Positions 23,912-32,859 of a stretch of 32,859 bases of DNA are shown here, one piece after another (the stretch's first letter is position 1; every line of letters begins with the position of its first letter). The translations under genes were made by a program, and so were the position numbers. Location of the stretch: assembly GCA_020029535.1 (NCBI GenBank), contig JAIBJM010000024.1, positions 1 to 32,859 of the forward strand, given 5' to 3'. Source of the stretch: Gammaproteobacteria bacterium. GTDB taxonomy: Bacteria > Pseudomonadota > Gammaproteobacteria > Steroidobacterales > Steroidobacteraceae. The notes below the pieces were generated by a model, which was not told where the DNA came from, ran no database searches, and worked only from the letters and a program-made list of their open reading frames with translations.

Positions 23912-26332
23912 TCAGGCTGCCGGCGCCGCGAAGCCGTCGGCGCCCATGCGCCAGGGCAGCCAGGCCAGCGCCACTTCGCCGATGGCCAGGTCCGACTTGC
24001 GCGGCGCGAGCTGCACGCTGCGCAGTGTGATCCCGGCCGGGTCCAGCGAGGTGCCGAGTGCGGCGATCTCGACCTCGCATTGCCTCTGCAGTTCGGCGCT
24101 GCGTTGCTCCACTGCTGCGACGCTCTCGTCGGCGTGCTCCACATCCTGTTGCTGCTGGCCGATGCGGCCTGCAGTACGCACCGCAGTCGCGGCGCGGCCC
24201 ATGCTGGTGGCTGAGAGGGCGCGCTTGCCGAGAAAGGCGCCCAGGATCGTGGCGCCGATCGACACCGCGGTCTGCAGTTTCTGCTGCGACAGCTGCGAGC
24301 GCTCGCGTTCACCGCGCGCCTGCGCACGCGCCAATCGGTCCTGCAGCGTCGCAAACCGGGGTGCATAAGAAGCGCGCAGCTTTTCGATCTGCGCATCGCG
24401 CGACTCGCGCAGCGACTGTCCCAGTCGTGTGCGGAACTCGCCCTCGCTCTCACCGGGATTCGAGCACTGCTTCAGCGCATCGCACACCAGCAGCGAATTG
24501 CGGGCGGTTTCATACAGATGCGCAGCCAGCGCCTTGCCCCAGTCGGCGTAGCTGTCGGCGCGCGAGGCCACACCGGGCAGTGCGCTGAAGCTGCTGCCAT
24601 CGGCGGGCGTGGCCGTGGCCTGCGAGCGCAGCGCGCCGGCATCGCGTGTCTCGGCCCACAGTACTTCGTGCCCATCATCGGACAGCGGCGCCAGCAAGTG
24701 CAGCGTCTGCCAGGCATCGACGCCGAGTCTGGCGTCGATGTAGTGCAGCCTGGCGGCGCCGAGAATCATCGGCCGGTATTCGATGGCGCCGCTCCCGTTG
24801 ATGGGCGGCAGGAAGTATTCGCGGATCGATGGTGCCAGTGGCGGACGGGAGGCCGGCACGCTATCCATTATTGTCGGCGCGGCACTGGCCGTTGCCGCGC
24901 TGGCCGCGGCTGATGCGTGTTTGCGTGGCGCCATCAGCTTCGCGATCTCCGGCGCCGTCAGCGGCCCGCGCAGATAGGACAGCGTCCAGCGCGTCTTCAT
25001 CAGCCGCGGCGCATCTTCCTTCGCATTGCGTAACAGGAATACCCGCGGCGTCAGCGAGGACATCAGCTGCGCCAGTTCACTGCGATCCAGCGTGTTGTCG
25101 CCACCGAGCGCGCTGGTCAAGCCCTCGATGACGCGCAGCCTGTCGCGTTCGGTCTGCAGACGGCCGATCAGCCAGGTGCCGGCATTGCCGAGGCCGCGAT
25201 AGTCCAGGTCCACCGGGTTCTGCGTGGCCAGCACGCAGCCCAGACCGAAGGCGCGCGCCTGCTTCAGCAGCGTCAGCATGGGCTGCTTGGAGGGCGGATT
25301 AGCCGTCGGCGGGAAGTAGCCGAAGATCTCGTCCATGTAGAACAGCGCGCGCAGGCTTCCGGTGCCGCTCTGTCGGCGCATCCATGCCACCAGCTCGTTC
25401 AGCACCAGCGTGACGATGAACATGCGCTCGGCATCCGGCAGATGCGCAATCGAAATCACCGCGATACGGGGTTTCCCCTCCGGCGTATACAGCAATCGCT
25501 GTGCATCCAGCGGCTCGCCTTCCATCCAGGCCGCGAAGCCCGGCGAGGCCAGCAGCGCGTTCACCGCCATCGCCAGCTGCAGCCTGTCCTTGGCGGGGTG
25601 GAAAGTTTCCAGATCGAAGGCGCCCACTTTGTCGAAGGGTGGCTTCTGGATGGCATTGATGAGCCCGGCCAGATCCAGCGCCACGCCGGCGCTCCAGCTC
25701 TGTTCGATGATGCGCGCCAACAGGATGTAGTCACGGCTGTTCACTGGATCGGCATCGCGATCGAGCAGCGCCAGCAATGCGGCCACCGTGCTGCCGATCT
25801 GTTCGCGCAGCGCGGCCGGATCGGCCAGCGCTTCGGCACCGGGACTGGCCAGCGAGCGCAACACCGACAGTCCCAGCCCGCTGCTGGCGCCGGGCGTGTA
25901 GATGGCCACGTCCACCGCGTCGCGCAGGCGCGCGATACGGGAGGGTTCCTGGTCCCATTCCGCGAGACCCTTGCGCCAGGTGTCGGCGGTCTGCGCCGCG
26001 AACTGGTCCACGCTCAGTCCGCGTCGTTCGGCCTCGGCCGGATCCACCCAGGGTTTGAATTCATCGGCCGACAGCGCCGGAAAGTTCAGCAGCAGATTGC
26101 CGATATCGCCCTTGGGATCGATGCAGATGGCCGGGATGCCATCGATGGCCGCTTCCTCGAGCATGGCCAGACAAAGTCCGGTCTTGCCGCTGCCGGTCAT
26201 GCCCACGCAGACCGCATGCGTGGTCAGGTCCTTCGAGTCATAGAGAATCGGCGTGTCGGTGGTGGCGGTGCCGGCGGGGTCGTATTCGCGACCCAGATAG
26301 AACATGCCGAGTTTTTCGTAGTCGCTGTGCAT
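23912..26332 (-). CDS. HerA/FtsK-superfamily ATPase with coiled-coil, Gly-rich C-terminus (unknown function)
   Basis: In this 806-aa protein the ATPase core has Walker A GMTGSGKT (44-51), IDPKGD (71-76), Walker B LRALFYMDE (327-335), sensor LATQNP (368-373) and a likely arginine finger in IGRLQTERD (389-397), the HerA/VirB4 pattern. An Ala-rich linker (about 470-500) leads to a C-terminal module with a charged coil (about 640-685), a Gly-rich hydrophobic stretch SIGATILGAFLG (691-702) and a second coil (725-760). The last 45 residues are conserved-looking and end in FAAPAA. It is not YjgR, which is much shorter. No nuclease partner is next to it, so a DNA-processing role is unproven. A weak promoter (TTGCAC, 17 nt, TAGTTT) ends 8 nt before the ATG, and no Shine-Dalgarno is seen. 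It leads an operon with oxyR and the lipase. Confidence 0.85.
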   Translation of the reverse strand: MHSDYEKLGMFYLGREYDPAGTATTDTPILYDSKDLTTHAVCVGMTGSGKTGLCLAMLEEAAIDGIPAICIDPKGDIGNLLLNFPALSADEFKPWVDPAEAERRGLSVDQFAAQTADTWRKGLAEWDQEPSRIARLRDAVDVAIYTPGASSGLGLSVLRSLASPGAEALADPAALREQIGSTVAALLALLDRDADPVNSRDYILLARIIEQSWSAGVALDLAGLINAIQKPPFDKVGAFDLETFHPAKDRLQLAMAVNALLASPGFAAWMEGEPLDAQRLLYTPEGKPRIAVISIAHLPDAERMFIVTLVLNELVAWMRRQSGTGSLRALFYMDEIFGYFPPTANPPSKQPMLTLLKQARAFGLGCVLATQNPVDLDYRGLGNAGTWLIGRLQTERDRLRVIEGLTSALGGDNTLDRSELAQLMSSLTPRVFLLRNAKEDAPRLMKTRWTLSYLRGPLTAPEIAKLMAPRKHASAAASAATASAAPTIMDSVPASRPPLAPSIREYFLPPINGSGAIEYRPMILGAARLHYIDARLGVDAWQTLHLLAPLSDDGHEVLWAETRDAGALRSQATATPADGSSFSALPGVASRADSYADWGKALAAHLYETARNSLLVCDALKQCSNPGESEGEFRTRLGQSLRESRDAQIEKLRASYAPRFATLQDRLARAQARGERERSQLSQQKLQTAVSIGATILGAFLGKRALSATSMGRAATAVRTAGRIGQQQQDVEHADESVAAVEQRSAELQRQCEVEIAALGTSLDPAGITLRSVQLAPRKSDLAIGEVALAWLPWRMGADGFAAPAA

Positions 26333-26340
26333 GGAAGGGC

Positions 26341-26369
26341 AAACTAGCCATCCCTTCCTCCCCGTGCAA
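26341..26369 (-). promoter_or_regulatory. Candidate promoter of the ATPase-oxyR-lipase operon
   Basis: On the minus strand TTGCAC (26369-26364) and TAGTTT (26346-26341) are 17 nt apart, and the -10 ends 8 nt before the ATG at 26332. The match to consensus is weak (3 of 6 each). No four-part ATAG-type OxyR site is visible. Confidence 0.3.
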
Positions 26370-26398
26370 GCAGCCCTTTATCGGGTTGATTCAATGAC

Positions 26399-26428
26399 TT
26401 GACGGCCCCGGCGAGGCCTCGCCATACT
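26399..26428 (+). promoter_or_regulatory. Candidate trp operon promoter
   Basis: TTGACG (26399-26404; 5 of 6) and CATACT (26423-26428; 4 of 6) are separated by 18 nt. The predicted start falls at the A of the trpL ATG (26435), six bases after the -10. A small palindrome TTGATTCAA (26386-26394) lies just upstream of the -35 and could be an operator; it does not resemble the E. coli TrpR site. Confidence 0.5.
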
Positions 26429-26434
26429 GCCCGC

Positions 26435-26488
26435 ATGCCTGAATCAGCTCCATTTGCCGCGATTTCCCGCTGGTGGCGCCACTCCTGA
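26435..26488 (+). CDS. trpL: trp leader peptide (17 aa, tandem Trp codons)
   Basis: A short reading frame encodes MPESAPFAAISRWWRHS. The two adjacent TGG codons (26471-26476) placed shortly before mutually exclusive hairpins, and directly upstream of trpE, identify it as the attenuation leader. No Shine-Dalgarno precedes it, and the predicted transcription start coincides with its ATG, so it may be translated as a leaderless message. Ribosome stalling at the Trp codons when charged tRNA-Trp is scarce would let the operon be read. Confidence 0.85.
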   Translation: MPESAPFAAISRWWRHS

Positions 26489-26554
26489 TCGGAGAGGGCG
26501 CAGGGCTATTCAATACCGACCCATCTCCGGACTGCCTCCGGGATGGGTTTTTTT
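26482..26554 (+). terminator. trp attenuator (1:2, antiterminator and terminator stems)
   Basis: Terminator: ACCCATC (26519-26525) pairs with GATGGGT (26542-26548) and, after a one-base bulge, CCGGA (26527-26531) pairs with TCCGG (26537-26541); the loop is CTGCC and a seven-T run follows (26548-26554). Antiterminator: CGGAGA (26490-26495) pairs with TCTCCG (26524-26529), which destroys the terminator. Early stem: CTCC (26482-26485) pairs with GGAG (26491-26494) and blocks the antiterminator. A ribosome stalled at 26471-26476 would cover the 26482-26485 arm, favouring antitermination. Confidence 0.85.
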
Positions 26555-27955
26555 ATGGGATCCATGAAGCCACCATTCGACATTGCAGGTGACCTTGATA
26601 CGCCGGTTTCGGCCTTCGCCAAACTGTCGGCGTTCAATCCCCGCTTCCTGCTCGAAAGCGTCGAAGGCGGTGAGCGCCAGGGGCGCTATTCCTTCATCGG
26701 TTTTGGCGACGCGCTGGAAGTAAAGCTCGACGCGCAGCAATTCATTGTCGGTGGCAAGGCGCAGCCGGTACCGCGCGATGCTGCCGAGCTGCTGGCAGGC
26801 CTGCGTGCCGCGCTGGCGCAGGCGCCGCGCCCTTTACCTGCGATTGCGCAGGTGCCGCTGGCCGGCGGACTGGTGGGCTACGCCAGCTACGACATCGTGC
26901 GTTACTTCGAGCGGCTGCCCTCGCATGCCGCGCCGCTCCCCAATGCGCCGCCGCTGCTGCACTACGCTGCGCCACGCTCGCTGCTGGTGTTCGATCATTC
27001 CACGCGCGCCATTGCGCTGCTGCATGCCGGGAGCGAGATCGATCGCGCCGCGCTGCGTCGCGCCGTCATCGATGCGCTGCGCGGTCCGGCACCCGGCACG
27101 CTGGCGCATGGGGGCAGCTACTCGGCGCCGACGGCCGCGCTGTCGCGCGAGGCCTACATGGCCGGCGTGCGCCGCACGCAGGAATACATCGCCGCCGGTG
27201 ATGTATACCAGCTGGTGCTGTCATCGCGCTTTTCGGGCCGGCATCAGCTCGATCCCTTCCAGGTGTATCGCGCGCTGCGGCTGATCAATCCTTCGCCGTA
27301 CATGTTCTATTGCAAGCTGGGCGAACTCACGGTGGTGGGCTCCTCGCCGGAAGCGCTGGTGAAGCTGCATGGGGGGCAGGCCGAATTGCGACCCATTGCC
27401 GGCACGCGACCGCGCTCGGACGATGCCGCCGTCGATGCGGCGCGCGAGACCGAGCTGCTGGCCGATCCGAAGGAGAACGCGGAACACGTGATGCTGGTGG
27501 ATCTGGCGCGTAACGACCTCGGGCGCGTCGCCGCACCGGGCAGCGTGTATGTGAAGCCCTATCGCGCCATCGAGCGATACAGCCATGTGATGCACATCGT
27601 CAGCGGTGTGCGCGGCCAGCTGGCCGCCGGTCGCGATGCCTTCGATCTGTTTGCGGCGGCCTTTCCCGCCGGCACGCTGGTGGGTGCGCCCAAGGTGCGC
27701 GCCATGGAAATCATCGAAGAGCTGGAGCCGGTGCGGCGCGGCCTGTATGGCGGCACCGTGGGTTACTTCGGCGCGCAGGGCGACATGGACCAGGCCATCA
27801 CCATCCGTTCGCTGGTGTTCCATGGCGATGAATACAGCTACCAGGCCGGCGCCGGCATCGTCGCCGACAGCAGGCCCGAAGCCGAACACGATGAAATCCT
27901 CGCCAAGAGCGCGTCCGCAGTGCGCGCGCTGGCGCTGGCCGGAGAGGGGCTGTGA
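26555..27955 (+). CDS. trpE: Anthranilate synthase component I
   Basis: The protein is about 466 aa. N-terminal regulatory elements include [19 protein letters not shown] in the region expected for tryptophan feedback binding (LLES). The catalytic chorismate-binding domain has [79 protein letters not shown] and GGTVGYFG, each standard for TrpE. It makes anthranilate from chorismate with ammonia from TrpG. Start is uncertain: ATG 26555 directly follows the attenuator T run and has a GGG about 7 nt upstream; ATG 26564 has GGGA too close; ATG 26543 lies in the terminator stem and is unlikely. It overlaps trpG by 4 nt. Confidence 0.95.
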
Positions 27956-28539
27956 CGCCACGTCTGCTGCTGATCGACAACTACGATTCCTTCACCTACA
28001 ACCTGGTGCAGGCCTGCATGGTGCTGGGCGCCGATGTGCGCGTGTACCGCAACGATGCCATCACCGTGGCCGAGGCCGATGAGCTGGCGCCCACGCATCT
28101 GTGCATTTCGCCCGGTCCCGGCACGCCGCAGCAGGCCGGCGTGTCGATCGAGATGATCCGCCATTTCGCCGGCGACATTCCGGTGTTCGGCGTGTGCCTC
28201 GGGCATCAATCGATCACCGAAGCCTTCGGCGGCAAGGTGGTGCGCGCGCCGCGGCTGATGCATGGCAAGACCTCGCTGATCGAGCACGATGGCCGCGGCG
28301 TGTTTGCCGGCGTGCCCAGTCCCTGCGAGGTCGGCCGCTATCACTCGCTGATTGCAGAGCCCGCCAGCCTTCCACCGGAACTTGAAGTGACGGCGCGCAC
28401 CGATGAGGGTGAAGTGATGGGGCTGCGTCATCGGGAGCTGTGCGTCGAAGGCGTGCAATTCCATCCGGAAAGCGTACTGACGCCGGATGGTCCGGCGATG
28501 ATGCAGAACTTCCTGCGCTTCACTGCAGGTCGCCGATGA
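27952..28539 (+). CDS. trpG: Anthranilate synthase component II (glutamine amidotransferase)
   Basis: The 195-aa class I glutamine amidotransferase starts [14 protein letters not shown]. The catalytic triad is Cys82 (FGVCLGHQ) with His171 and Glu173 (VQFHPES); the oxyanion region SPGPGTP is present. It supplies ammonia to TrpE, and such proteins often also serve PabB in folate synthesis. GTG 27952 overlaps the trpE stop (GTGA) and has GGAGAGGG upstream, so the two subunits are translationally coupled. It is unfused to trpD, unlike enterobacteria. Confidence 0.95.
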
Positions 28540-29555
28540 AGCAGATCCTCGATCAATTGCTGGATGGGAAATCGCTGGGCGAGCGGCAGGCCCGCGAGCT
28601 GCTGGTTGGGCTCACCGCGCCGGATCTGGCGCCGGCGCTGGCCGGCGCCGTGCTGGCAGCACTGCGCGCCAAGGGCGTCACCGCTGAGGAGCTGCGCGGT
28701 TTTGCCGGCGCCATGCGCGCGCAGGCGCGCCGGCCGCAGCTGCCGCCCGGCGGACCCACCGTCGACATCGTCGGCACCGGTGGCGACAAGTCCGGCAGTC
28801 TCAATCTTTCAACCGGCGCGGCGCTGCTGACCGCGGCCTGCGGCCAGCGCGTGGTCAAGCATGGCAATCGTTCGGTATCCAGCCGTGCCGGCAGCGCCGA
28901 TGTACTGGAATGCCTTGGCATCAAACTGCCGCTCGACGAAGTGCGCGCCGGTGAATGTCTGGCTGCCACCGGCTTCACCTTCCTGTTCGCACCGCATTAC
29001 CACCCGGCGATGAAGAACATCGGACCGGTGCGCCAGGCGCTGGGTGTGCGCACGGTATTCAACATCCTGGGTCCGCTGTCGAATCCGGCCGAGCCGGATT
29101 TCCATGTGATCGGCGCCTTCAATCTGGCCACCGCCGAACTGATGGCGGAGGCGCTGTCGGGCATGCCAATCAAACGCGCCTTCGTCGTGCACGGCGCCGG
29201 CGGCTGGGATGAGCCCACGCCCATCGGTGAGTTCCAGCTGTTCGATGTGACGCCGCGCACGGTCACCCGCAGCAAACGCGATCCGGCGCACTTCGGTCTG
29301 CCACGTTGCAGTGCCGATGCATTGGCCGGCGGCGATGCCGCCTTCAATGCGCGCGCGCTGCAAGCGGCCCTGCGCGGTGAAGATCGCGGTGCGCATCGCG
29401 ATGCGCTGCTGCTGGGTGCCGCGCTGGCGCTGGAAGTAATGGGCGTGGCCGCGGCGCCGCGCGAGGCCGTGGCGCAGGCTGCCCACGCCATCGACTCCGG
29501 CGCAGCAGCGCAGCTGCTGACGAAGCTGGCGGCCTTCGGCGGAGCTGCATCGTGA
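28536..29555 (+). CDS. trpD: Anthranilate phosphoribosyltransferase
   Basis: The 339-aa enzyme joins anthranilate with PRPP. The PRPP site reads [17 protein letters not shown] (80-96), where most relatives have GTGGD followed by a threonine or phenylalanine; [18 protein letters not shown] (108-125) supplies the anthranilate/PRPP region, and [21 protein letters not shown] is conserved. The ATG overlaps the trpG stop by 4 nt (ATGA). Length is ordinary for a stand-alone TrpD. It is the third structural gene of the operon. Confidence 0.94.
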
Positions 29556-30385
29556 GCGAGGATTTTCTCGCCGGCATGGCAGCTTCCAGCAGTGCTCGCG
29601 TGGCCGCAGCACGCGCGACGCTGCCGGATGGCGAACTGCTGGCGCGCGCGCTTGAGACGCCATTGCCGCCGCGGCTGACGCTGTCGCCGCAGGGTTTCGA
29701 CCTGATCGCCGAGGTCAAACTGCGTTCGCCGGCCATGGGCCTGCTGCGTGCCGCTGAGGAGAACCTGGCCGCGCGCGTGGTGGATTACGCCTCGGCCGGC
29801 GCGGCTGCGGTGTCGGTGCTCACCGAACCGGACCGCTTCGATGGTTCGCTCGAGGATCTGCAGCTGGCCACGCGCGCGCTGCGCGATCGCGTGCCGACCA
29901 TGCGCAAGGACTTCCTGGTCGATCCCTACCAGGTGATGGAAGCGCGGCTGGCCGGCGCCGGCGGCGTGCTGGTGATCCTGCGCATGCTGTCGCTGGAGCA
30001 GAATGCCGCACTGATCGAATGCGCGACGAAGCTGGGTCTGTTCGTGCTGCTGGAGGCGTTCGACGAGGCCGATATTGCGCAGGCCGAACGGCTGCTGCGC
30101 ACGCATGCCGCCGCGGCCACACGTGCGCAGGCACCGCTGCTGGTGGGCGTCAACTGCCGCGATCTGGTGACGCTGCAGGTGATGCCGGGACGGCTGGAGC
30201 AGATGGCGCCGCTGCTGCCGCGTGATGCGCCGCACGTGGCCGAGAGCGGCGTTGTATCCGCCACCGATGCCGGGCGCCTGTCAGCCGCCGGCTATGACCT
30301 GGCGCTGGTGGGTGGTGCGCTGATGCGCGCCGTCGACGCATTGCAGCTGGTGCGCGCCATGCTGGCTGCGGGACGCACGGCGTGA
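29552..30385 (+). CDS. trpC: Indole-3-glycerol phosphate synthase
   Basis: The 277-aa TIM-barrel enzyme converts carboxyphenylaminodeoxyribulose phosphate to indole-glycerol phosphate. Conserved motifs are LIAEVKLRSPAMG (catalytic Glu and Lys; most relatives read ASPSKG here), VLTEPDRFDGSLEDL, MRKDFLVDPYQV (catalytic Lys), VGVNCRDL and AESGV. It is a single-function enzyme, not the TrpC-TrpF fusion of E. coli. GTG 29552 overlaps the trpD stop (GTGA), with GGAG about 9 nt upstream. Confidence 0.94.
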   Translation: MSEDFLAGMAASSSARVAAARATLPDGELLARALETPLPPRLTLSPQGFDLIAEVKLRSPAMGLLRAAEENLAARVVDYASAGAAAVSVLTEPDRFDGSLEDLQLATRALRDRVPTMRKDFLVDPYQVMEARLAGAGGVLVILRMLSLEQNAALIECATKLGLFVLLEAFDEADIAQAERLLRTHAAAATRAQAPLLVGVNCRDLVTLQVMPGRLEQMAPLLPRDAPHVAESGVVSATDAGRLSAAGYDLALVGGALMRAVDALQLVRAMLAAGRTA

Positions 30386-30984
30386 GCGGCTGGATCAAGA
30401 TCTGCGGCATGACCAGCGAGGCGGCGGTGGCAGCCGCGCTGGCCGCCGGCGTTGATGCCATCGGCTTCGTGTTCGCGCCGTCGGTGCGCCAGGTGTCTGC
30501 GGCCCGCGCGCGCCAACTCGCCGCGCCGGCGCGTGACCGCGCCACCTGCATCGCCGTGACCCAGCATCCGTCGCAGTCGCAGGTGGATGAAATTATTGAT
30601 GTATTCGGGCCGGACGTATTGCAGAGCGACGCCGATGATCTCGCCGCGCTGCGTCTGCCCGCTACGCTGCCGCGATTGCCGGTGCTGCGCTCGGGCGCGG
30701 CCACTGCGTTCCGTGGTGCGATGCCGGCGCGACTGTTGTTTGAAGGACCGCGCAGCGGCACCGGCGAGACCAGCGACTGGCAGACGGCGGCACAACTCGC
30801 GCCGCAGACGCAGCTGATCCTGGCCGGCGGACTGAATGCCGGCAATGTGTCGCGCGCCATCGCCGAGGTGCGGCCCTTCGGCGTGGATACATCCAGCGGC
30901 GTCGAGTCGCAGCCGGGCGTCAAGGATGCGGCGCTGATTGCTGAATTTGTGCAGGCGGCGCGTGCCGCCTTTCGGGCGGGGTAA
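30382..30984 (+). CDS. trpF: Phosphoribosylanthranilate isomerase
   Basis: The 200-aa TIM-barrel enzyme carries the N-terminal KICGM motif with the catalytic cysteine and, near the C-terminus, GVDTSSGVESQPGVKD with the catalytic aspartate. AIGFVFAPSVRQVS and LILAGGLNAGNV are also family motifs. It performs the Amadori rearrangement of phosphoribosylanthranilate. GTG 30382 overlaps the trpC stop (GTGA). It is followed by trpB after 3 nt. Confidence 0.94.
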   Translation: MSGWIKICGMTSEAAVAAALAAGVDAIGFVFAPSVRQVSAARARQLAAPARDRATCIAVTQHPSQSQVDEIIDVFGPDVLQSDADDLAALRLPATLPRLPVLRSGAATAFRGAMPARLLFEGPRSGTGETSDWQTAAQLAPQTQLILAGGLNAGNVSRAIAEVRPFGVDTSSGVESQPGVKDAALIAEFVQAARAAFRAG

Positions 30985-30987
30985 GTC

Positions 30988-32250
30988 ATGAGTGAATCGA
31001 CAACGCAGTCGCAGGCTGAACTGCTGGCCGCACTGCTGGCGGGCCGCTATCCGGACGAGCAGGGCCGCTACGGTCCGTTCGGCGGACGTTATGTGCCTGA
31101 AACATTGATCCCGGCGCATCAGCGTCTCGAAGCCGGCGTGCGTCGCTGGCTGCAGGATGCCGGGTTCCAGGCCGAGCTCACGCATGAGTTGCGCACCTGG
31201 GTGGGCCGTCCCACCGCGCTGACCTTCGCACCGCATCTGTCGCAGCGCTGGGGCGTCGAGGTGTGGTTGAAGCGCGAAGATCTTGCGCACACCGGCGCGC
31301 ACAAGATCAACAATGCGCTGGGCCAGGCGCTGCTGGCGCGCAGGCTGGGTGCGAAGCGGGTGGTCGCGGAGACCGGCGCCGGTCAGCATGGCGTGGCCAG
31401 CGCCGCGGCCTGCGCACGCGTGGGTCTGCCCTGCACCGTGTACATGGGCGCGGTGGACATGGAGCGTCAGGCGCCCAATGTGGGTCGCATGAAATTGCTG
31501 GGCGCCACCGTGGTCGGCGTCACCAGTGGCGATGCCACGCTGCGCGCCGCCATCGACGAGGCCATGCGCGACTGGGTCGGCGATCCGGATGGCACCTTCT
31601 ACATTCTCGGCTCGGCGGTGGGCGCGCATCCCTATCCGTACCTGGTGCGCGAGCTGCAGGCGGTGATCGGCCGTGAAGCGCGCGAACAGATGCTGCAGCA
31701 GGCCGGCGCCTTGCCCGATGCATTGATTGCCTGCGTGGGCGGTGGCTCCAATGCCATCGGCCTCTTCCATGCCTTCATCACGGATCAATCGGTGCGCATC
31801 ATCGGTGTCGAGGCGGGCGGCACCGGCAGGGGTCTGGGCGAAAACGCTGCGACGCTGAGCTATGGCCGGCCCGGCGTGCTGCACGGCAGCCACTCCATGC
31901 TGCTGCAGGATGACAATGGCCAGATCCAGGAAACGCATTCGGTATCGGCCGGTCTCGACTATCCCGGCGTGGGTCCCGAGCATTCGCTGCTGCGAGCGGC
32001 GGGCCGGGTGTCTTATGAGTCGGCCAGCGACGAGGAAGCGCTGGCCGCAGTGCAGGAGCTCTGCCAGAGCGAAGGCATTCTGCCGGCGCTGGAGAGCGCG
32101 CATGCGCTGGCCGGCGCGAAGCGCTGGGCCGCGGCCAATCGCGGCACGCGGACGCTGCGCGTGCTGATCGGTCTTTCCGGTCGCGGCGACAAGGACATGC
32201 CCACGTTGTCGAAGACCCTGATCGCGCGGCTCGAGGGGCAGGATAAATGA
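30988..32250 (+). CDS. trpB: Tryptophan synthase beta chain
   Basis: The 420-aa protein belongs to the common TrpB1 type. The pyridoxal phosphate lysine is Lys106 in HTGAHKINNALGQ. Other landmarks are YGPFGGRYVPETL near the start, ETGAGQHGVA, the phosphate-binding GGGSNAIG and HSVSAGLDYPGVGPEH. It condenses indole with serine to give tryptophan in a complex with TrpA. It overlaps trpA by 4 nt. The N-terminal 20 residues before the first conserved motif are slightly longer than usual. Confidence 0.96.
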   Translation: MSESTTQSQAELLAALLAGRYPDEQGRYGPFGGRYVPETLIPAHQRLEAGVRRWLQDAGFQAELTHELRTWVGRPTALTFAPHLSQRWGVEVWLKREDLAHTGAHKINNALGQALLARRLGAKRVVAETGAGQHGVASAAACARVGLPCTVYMGAVDMERQAPNVGRMKLLGATVVGVTSGDATLRAAIDEAMRDWVGDPDGTFYILGSAVGAHPYPYLVRELQAVIGREAREQMLQQAGALPDALIACVGGGSNAIGLFHAFITDQSVRIIGVEAGGTGRGLGENAATLSYGRPGVLHGSHSMLLQDDNGQIQETHSVSAGLDYPGVGPEHSLLRAAGRVSYESASDEEALAAVQELCQSEGILPALESAHALAGAKRWAAANRGTRTLRVLIGLSGRGDKDMPTLSKTLIARLEGQDK

Positions 32251-32859
32251 GCGTCCTGCCTCGCGATCGCATCAGCACCGTCTTGCGCGCGCGCAGCGCG
32301 ACGGGCGACGTCGCGCTGGTGGCCTTCATGACGGCCGGCTACCCCCGCAAGGAAAAATTCCGCGAACATCTGGCGGCTGTTGCGGCCGGTGCGGACGTGG
32401 TTGAAATCGGCGTGCCCTTCACCGACCCGATGGCCGATGGCGTCACCATCCAGCGTTCCAGCCGCGAAGCTCTGGCGCAGGGGGTCAGCCTGCGCTGGAT
32501 TCTCCAGGAACTGGCGAAGTCACCACTTGCGACGCCCTTGCTGTTGATGAGCTATCTGAACCCGCTGCTGTCGTACGGGTTTGATGCGCTGGCTACCGAT
32601 GCGCTGCGCGCCGGTGTCTGTGGTTTCATCGTGCCGGATCTGCCTTTGGAGGAGAGCGCTGCGCTGCGCGCTGCGCTCGACAAGCATGGCCTGGCGCTGG
32701 TGCAGATGGTGACACCGGTGACGCCGGCCGATCGCATCAGGCAGCTGTGTGCCATCAGCCAGGGTTTTGTCTACGCCGTGACCATGACCGGCACCACCGG
32801 CAAGAGCGTGGCGGTGCCCGCTGAAATGCTGGCTTATCTGCAGGGTGTGCGTGCGGCCG
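32247..32859 (+). CDS. trpA: Tryptophan synthase alpha chain (3' end beyond window)
   Basis: The first 204 codons are visible; the usual length is about 265-270. Catalytic Glu53 lies in VVEIGVPFTDP and Asp64 in MADG; FMTAGYP near the start, LMSYLNPLLSYG, FIVPDLPLEE and the loop FVYAVTMTGTTGKS are all conserved. It cleaves indole-glycerol phosphate to indole, which passes to TrpB. The ATG at 32247 overlaps the trpB stop (ATGA). It closes the trpLEGDCFBA series within view; whether more genes follow is unseen. Confidence 0.95.
   Translation, partial: MSVLPRDRISTVLRARSATGDVALVAFMTAGYPRKEKFREHLAAVAAGADVVEIGVPFTDPMADGVTIQRSSREALAQGVSLRWILQELAKSPLATPLLLMSYLNPLLSYGFDALATDALRAGVCGFIVPDLPLEESAALRAALDKHGLALVQMVTPVTPADRIRQLCAISQGFVYAVTMTGTTGKSVAVPAEMLAYLQGVRAA

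Follow-up and report, generated by a model that had tools for sequence, protein, structure and literature searches.

The question raised by this locus is whether its trp operon is controlled by an attenuator whose leader peptide is translated from a message that begins at, or almost at, its own start codon. Having compared the sequence with that of its relatives, we consider it very likely that a ribosome-mediated trp attenuator works here on a leaderless or near-leaderless message. The window (the whole stretch of 32,859 nucleotides that was analysed) closes with trpE, trpG, trpD, trpC, trpF, trpB and the start of trpA, all of which lie on the forward strand from position 26564 onward in the list of open reading frames (Table 1). 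In a family scan covering trpE to trpB, the curated cut-offs were passed by trpG, trpD and trpB, with the best matches of trpE (471 versus 518 bits), trpC and trpF falling below theirs; trpA, which is cut by the window end, was named from its position and translation. The ATG at 26564 aligns with that of the closest relatives and was taken as the start of trpE, the other in-frame ATGs being those at 26543 and 26555. Overlaps of 4 nt (GTGA or ATGA) at five of the six operon junctions (trpE/G, G/D, D/C, C/F and B/A; window positions 27952-32250) suggest translational coupling along the operon. TrpE and TrpG are unfused here, and TIGR01815 had no match in the genome at E<=1e-150. On the other side of the leader, position 26332 is the start of a divergently oriented gene that weakly matches DUF87/HerA.

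Table 1. Positions of the leader and operon features within the window.
Feature	Position	Strand	Basis and remarks
-35 element TTGACG	26399..26404	+	sigma-70-like promoter scan
-10 element CATACT	26423..26428	+	sigma-70-like promoter scan; 18-nt spacer from the -35 element
trpL leader ORF, 17 codons, MPESAPFAAISRWWRHS	26435..26488	+	ORF; ATG 6 nt past the -10 element; predicted leaderless
Trp codon pair TGGTGG (regulatory)	26471..26476	+	read in the ORF
1:2 stem, early pause-type hairpin	26476..26501	+	folding; weakly above shuffles
Antiterminator 2:3	26490..26529	+	folding; CGGAGAGGG (26490-26498) pairs with CCCATCTCCG (26520-26529), one bulged A
Terminator hairpin 3:4	26518..26547	+	folding; outermost predicted pairs take T residues 26548-26549
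T7 tract of the intrinsic terminator	26548..26554	+	read in the sequence
trpE	26564..27955	+	ORF and family scan; start at ATG 26564
trpG, trpD, trpC, trpF, trpB, trpA	27952..32858	+	ORFs; families for trpE to trpB

We looked for promoters by scanning for matches to the sigma-70 consensus, the only consensus on which these predictions rest. TTGACG/CATACT was the sole promoter-like match on either strand of 26250-26650, compared with a mean of 0.2 in 50 shuffles, and just 6 nt (GCCCGC) separate its -10 element from the trpL ATG. Judging from this layout, transcription very probably starts at the trpL ATG or within a few bases of it; a start exactly on the A of that ATG is a prediction from the spacing. 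Across the 81 related genomes in which a Trp-codon leader was found (see below), each of the five TTGAC positions is conserved in 78-81, and the commonest form of the -10 element is (C/G/A)ATACT. The pattern TTGAC-N18-20-ATACT-N6-10-ATG has a single match in the 2.87-Mb genome, namely trpL, but since a control pattern read backwards also gave one match genome-wide, this carries no statistical weight and shows rarity only. A 14-bp perfect palindrome in the -35/-10 spacer (GGCGAGGCCTCGCC, 26411-26424) was considered as an operator and rejected, as relatives do not keep it.

Leaderless mRNAs are recognised in part by the absence of a Shine-Dalgarno sequence, and this is also what we found before trpL. 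The standard anti-Shine-Dalgarno was assumed in all scoring, because a search of the draft genome for the 3' end of the organism's own 16S rRNA did not find it. Against it, the 20 nt before the trpL ATG scored -1.5 kcal/mol, the weakest match among the window starts scored, although some ordinary genes are weak too: trpG, trpB, trpA and trpC scored -7.4, -7.6, -7.4 and -5.8 kcal/mol, and trpF, trpE (26564), trpD and the HerA-like gene -4.0, -4.0, -3.2 and -1.8 kcal/mol.

We asked how widely this arrangement is kept within the order. TrpE was searched for in 98 genomes (host genome included), which yielded 86 usable trpE upstream regions, again including the host. The 12 genomes left out had no match (G012, G076), a partial match only (G077), or only a much weaker match that is probably PabB (G013, G015, G040, G043, G066, G068, G072, G085, G096), and their removal cost the sample two of its 16 families (f8, f14). 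A leader ORF with Trp codons (TGGTGG or TGGNNNTGG) lies upstream of trpE in 81 of the 86 genomes. To these we applied a blind rule, in which the best-scoring promoter in about 290 nt was taken while the ORF was ignored, and the distance N was then counted from the -10 element to the nearest ORF start downstream. N fell between 6 and 10 in 76 of the 81 genomes (host included), as against 1.8% of 1620 shuffles, with values of 6, 7, 8, 9 and 10 in 17, 11, 23, 15 and 10 genomes, respectively. This layout is distributed over 40 of the 43 genera and 12 of the 14 families represented, relatives not being independent of one another. The leader starts with ATG in 73 of the 76 genomes and with GTG in three, and Shine-Dalgarno cores (GGAG, GAGG, AGGA) precede only 2 of 81 leader starts versus 32 of 86 trpE starts, the latter being approximate.

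If +1 is placed on the seventh base past the -10 element, the predicted 5' UTR amounts to 0-4 nt. As 48 of the 76 genomes have N values of 8-10, a UTR of 2-4 nt is allowed; in Streptomyces lividans, according to the excerpted report, the distance from -10 element to start is 4-9 nt with a mean of 6.3 (PMC8079986), and an exact-zero UTR is for that reason possible in most genomes. A preliminary description of this DNA had placed the transcription start on the A of the leader ATG. The close promoter-to-ATG spacing recurs in most sampled members of the order; in many relatives a UTR of 1-4 nt would be as likely as one of exactly zero. The same description had noted the lack of a Shine-Dalgarno sequence, which both the score at trpL and the scarcity of cores in relatives bear out.

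The exceptions are few. By the blind rule, five of the 81 genomes fall outside N 5-10 (G031, G063, G067, G090, G093); in G031, G067 and G090 an ATG lies 6-8 nt past a promoter match if ATG is preferred over an earlier GTG, and in G063 and G093 an ATG at such spacing is found only with weaker promoter matches. The best promoter differs in G031, G050, L036, L038 and L040 (TTGTAT-N17/18-TAGGCT), with the ATG still 6-7 nt after it. Of the five genomes lacking the Trp ORF, G054 (L127) still has the promoter, followed 7 nt later by an ATG, but misses the Trp codons, so that the attenuator has apparently been lost, and no such leader was found in the trpE upstream regions of G064, G070, G083 and G094. 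The same leader layout was also seen in L046, a Woeseia MAG that turned up as a TrpE relative.

These results bear on the possibility that the attenuator is of the ordinary leadered kind, transcribed from another promoter upstream with a normal 5' UTR, and that TTGACG/CATACT is secondary or a chance match. Such a reading draws on the fact that the promoters are predicted, and predicted from one consensus, but it has to account for the single promoter-like site around the leader, for a spacing that recurs in nearly all leaders sampled in the order, and for an ATG that would have no Shine-Dalgarno sequence even given a longer UTR. We consider it quite improbable.

The preliminary description had further read a 17-residue leader with two adjacent Trp codons, an early stem, an antiterminator and a strong terminator with seven T residues, the folds being mutually exclusive. 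The ORF and its TGGTGG were confirmed (Table 1). Folding energies were compared with those of 500 dinucleotide shuffles per stretch. The terminator stretch (26516-26554) reached -21.2 kcal/mol (z -4.7), with 0/500 shuffles as stable; the antiterminator stretch (26488-26532) reached -16.0 kcal/mol (z -2.3, 14/500 shuffles); and the 1:2 stretch (26470-26505), at -16.3 kcal/mol (z -1.6, 36/500 shuffles), is unremarkable alone. Folding of the whole leader (26435-26554) gave -52.1 kcal/mol (z -3.2, 3/500 shuffles). The 1:2 and 2:3 folds share bases at 26491-26494 and 26497-26498, and the 2:3 and 3:4 folds share most of 26520-26529, which makes the three mutually exclusive. In other words, the computation returned the series of exclusive folds ending in a T tract that is expected of an attenuator, with 1:2 weak, and the short leader ORF with adjacent Trp codons upstream of trp genes, which is equally expected, is present as well. 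When the RNA was folded as a growing chain, 1:2 was formed from 26500-26504 onward, ahead of the synthesis of arm 3. In the complete RNA the terminator was thermodynamically favoured in every stalled-ribosome fold made; in the textbook view, the antiterminated state relies on the order of synthesis.

The structures recur in the relatives, and their arms change together. The scan accepted a terminator with T tract in 76 of the 81 genomes; the misses (G001, G041, G058, G069, G082) have weak or absent T tracts, with the hairpin kept in G058 and in G041, where the promoter is also present with N=9 and the T tract is weak. Arm 3 contains CCCATCTCC in 59 of the 76, and among the 24 chosen loci that we displayed, divergent versions of arm 3 are matched by arms 2 and 4 (e.g., G087, G074, G063, G093). 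Pairing of 2:3 was stronger within than between genomes, with the observed value reached by 0/5000 permutations for 76 genomes, 1/5000 for 40 genomes (one per genus) and 64/5000 for 12 genomes (one per family); for 3:4, within-genome pairing likewise exceeded between-genome pairing, with 0/5000 permutations at each of 76, 40 and 12 genomes. In single sequences, 2:3 pairing was above shuffles (p<=0.05) in 53 of 76.

A second alternative holds that the terminator is real while the leader ORF plays no part in sensing, the element being an RNA- or protein-binding switch or a constitutive attenuator. The modest energies of the 1:2 and 2:3 folds at this locus, not far above those of shuffles, speak for it. 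Against this stand the co-evolution of the arms, the run of at least two consecutive Trp residues in 79 of 81 leaders, and the position of the first Trp codon, which is preceded by 12 codons here and comes 7-18 codons after the start across the 76 genomes. In addition, when 26000-27000 was searched with the 4227 models of Rfam, which include a trp leader family, the leader had no match at E<=5, and the two matches in that region lie on the opposite strand, inside trpE and below cut-offs. We regard a non-sensing leader as highly improbable.

From the computed promoter match, ORF, structures, conservation of spacing and co-variation, we infer where transcription starts, that ribosomes initiate on a bare AUG and that the operon responds to Trp, and regulation by the leaderless or near-leaderless attenuator would run as follows. 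RNA polymerase would start at the trpL ATG or a few bases off, and a ribosome would load on the nearly bare 5' AUG and translate 12 codons up to the Trp pair. With charged tRNA-Trp scarce, it would stall at nt 37-42 of the predicted message, where the two UGG codons lie, and cover arm 1, so that arm 2 would pair with arm 3, no terminator would form, and trpE onwards would be transcribed. With Trp plentiful, the ribosome would reach the stop codon and cover arm 2, arm 3 would pair with arm 4, and RNA polymerase would stop in the T7 tract, so that the message would end after about 120 nt. Given a leaderless start and a first Trp codon after 12 codons, the stall site would lie some 37 nt downstream of the 5' end; our guess is that this short distance may be the reason for the leaderless design, and, equally a guess, that the design lets ribosomes load quickly and uniformly just behind RNA polymerase. 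The fact that the promoter spacing is kept in so many genera suggests that leaderless initiation in attenuators is under selection, an idea for which these relatives form a test set.

In E. coli, the textbook case of trp attenuation, trpL is leadered and the scheme of 1:2, 2:3 and 3:4 folds is the same as seen here. The two systems share a WW leader of similar length and a multi-gene operon, but in E. coli K-12 our scan placed the trpL ATG 34 nt past the -10 element, with -4.5 kcal/mol against the anti-Shine-Dalgarno. TrpR represses trp in E. coli, as stated in the excerpted source (PMC5343134), whereas no such repression was seen for trp here.

Closer parallels have been published for leaderless leaders. 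In Sinorhizobium meliloti, as described in excerpts of two reports, the message begins at the AUG of trpL (rnTrpL, peTrpL), a short leader with Trp codons and mutually exclusive antiterminator and terminator (PMC7298713, PMC10117765). The preliminary description had pointed to this rhizobial case, which is indeed published, and the locus studied here resembles it in leader, structures and predicted start. The same excerpts report no transcription repression of rhizobial trpLE(G) (PMC7298713, PMC10117765). Rhizobia differ in being Alphaproteobacteria with fused trpE-trpG and the other trp genes in separate operons, unlike the trpE-G-D-C-F-B-A operon here. As a yardstick, the same scan found N 6-8 in 16 of 26 fused-TrpE(G) (rhizobial-type) loci, several of the 16 resting on low-scoring promoters (5-8 of 12) with no null computed, and no promoter match at N 6-8 in the remaining 10; several leaders of the fused-TrpE(G) loci resemble the published Bradyrhizobium peptide. 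Streptomyces lividans, in the excerpted account, has a leaderless Trp leader before trpE, TrpL1 MFAHSTRNWWWTAHPAAH (PMC8079986), as is predicted here, but it is an actinobacterium with a monocistronic trpE. We found no report of a leaderless trpL in Gammaproteobacteria in open-licence PubMed Central. Considering the Sinorhizobium and Streptomyces precedents, the present case would be a new clade for a kind already known, and it seems to be the form employed by most of the members sampled in this order, a gammaproteobacterial order other than that of E. coli. With the spacing kept, cores scarce and arms co-varying, the leaderless attenuator first proposed from the single sequence gains support from relatives.

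The likeness to rnTrpL/peTrpL also raises the idea that the attenuated message of about 120 nt acts in trans, which would be compatible with attenuation. The architecture is the same, and the small transcript is predicted to begin with the trpL AUG, as in the excerpted rhizobial report (PMC7298713). However, the rhizobial sRNA acts on trpDC mRNA, whereas trpD and trpC are in the same operon here, and the peptides of relatives look different by eye outside the Trp run, an argument tempered by rhizobial peptides with a shared role, which in the excerpted report differ there too (PMC7298713). We rate trans-action as unlikely, if less so than the other two alternatives. For the order as a whole, we think it likely that nearly all members attenuate trp on leaderless messages, in a stable and possibly ancient arrangement that arose separately from, or is shared with, that of rhizobia, in which Trp control depends on ribosomes starting at a bare AUG; the attenuated RNA of about 120 nt would in that case be a small leaderless mRNA that may act in trans.

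We also looked for a TrpR-like regulator. One match to the Trp_repressor superfamily (PF01371) occurs in 33 of 40 genomes. In the host, the match (G000:C59:27002-27238) is directly upstream of hisG (26392-26961), and the same holds, for example, in G016, G017 and G023. Owing to this position, we think it more likely that the PF01371 protein is a HisR-like his regulator, by analogy with the HisR-type his regulators that the excerpted source describes in Gram-positive bacteria (PMC9413887), than a repressor of trp; these data lend no support to control of trpL by TrpR. Beside hisG itself, for which 30 loci were fetched from 35 genomes and 21 examined, no leader with three consecutive His codons was found. 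For ilvB, with 30 loci fetched from 35 genomes and 25 examined, there were two weak GTG candidates without a T run. Among the trp, his and ilv operons examined, the leaderless leader design was thus seen for trp only.

For contrast, we sampled the rest of the class. Of 140 genomes searched, 107 matched, 105 of them outside the order, and 104 were used (G165, a partial match, was left out). Since the 33 unmatched genomes may include enteric-type TrpE, leadered E. coli-like attenuators are under-sampled. The scan, run with TGGTGG required and then relaxed, found a W-rich leader ORF of some kind, accompanied by a T run, at 8 of 104 TrpE loci, several of them doubtful as leaders, and leaderless spacing at 0 of these 8. 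The same rule gave leaderless spacing in 64 of 72 inside the order (Fisher p 4e-7 versus the class, with relatives not independent). The distance from -10 element to ATG suggests a route to leaderless leaders without RNA data. Farther afield, L061, a MAG labelled Deltaproteobacteria, has TTGACA-N17-TAAGAT followed after 7 nt by the ATG of MNHEQRYHYISLGNWWWLNSDLS upstream of trpE, and is from its sequence a probable further leaderless trpL.

Finally, the 3' arm of the terminator, GGGATGGG, lies just 5' of trpE, and no other stretch there resembles a Shine-Dalgarno sequence as well (window 26540-26564). The 20 nt before ATG 26555 score -7.0 kcal/mol against the anti-Shine-Dalgarno, compared with -4.0 before ATG 26564. 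Antitermination might additionally release GGGATGGG for the translation of trpE. The gap to trpE is similarly short in G007, G004, G008 and G011, and reaches up to 99 nt in others.
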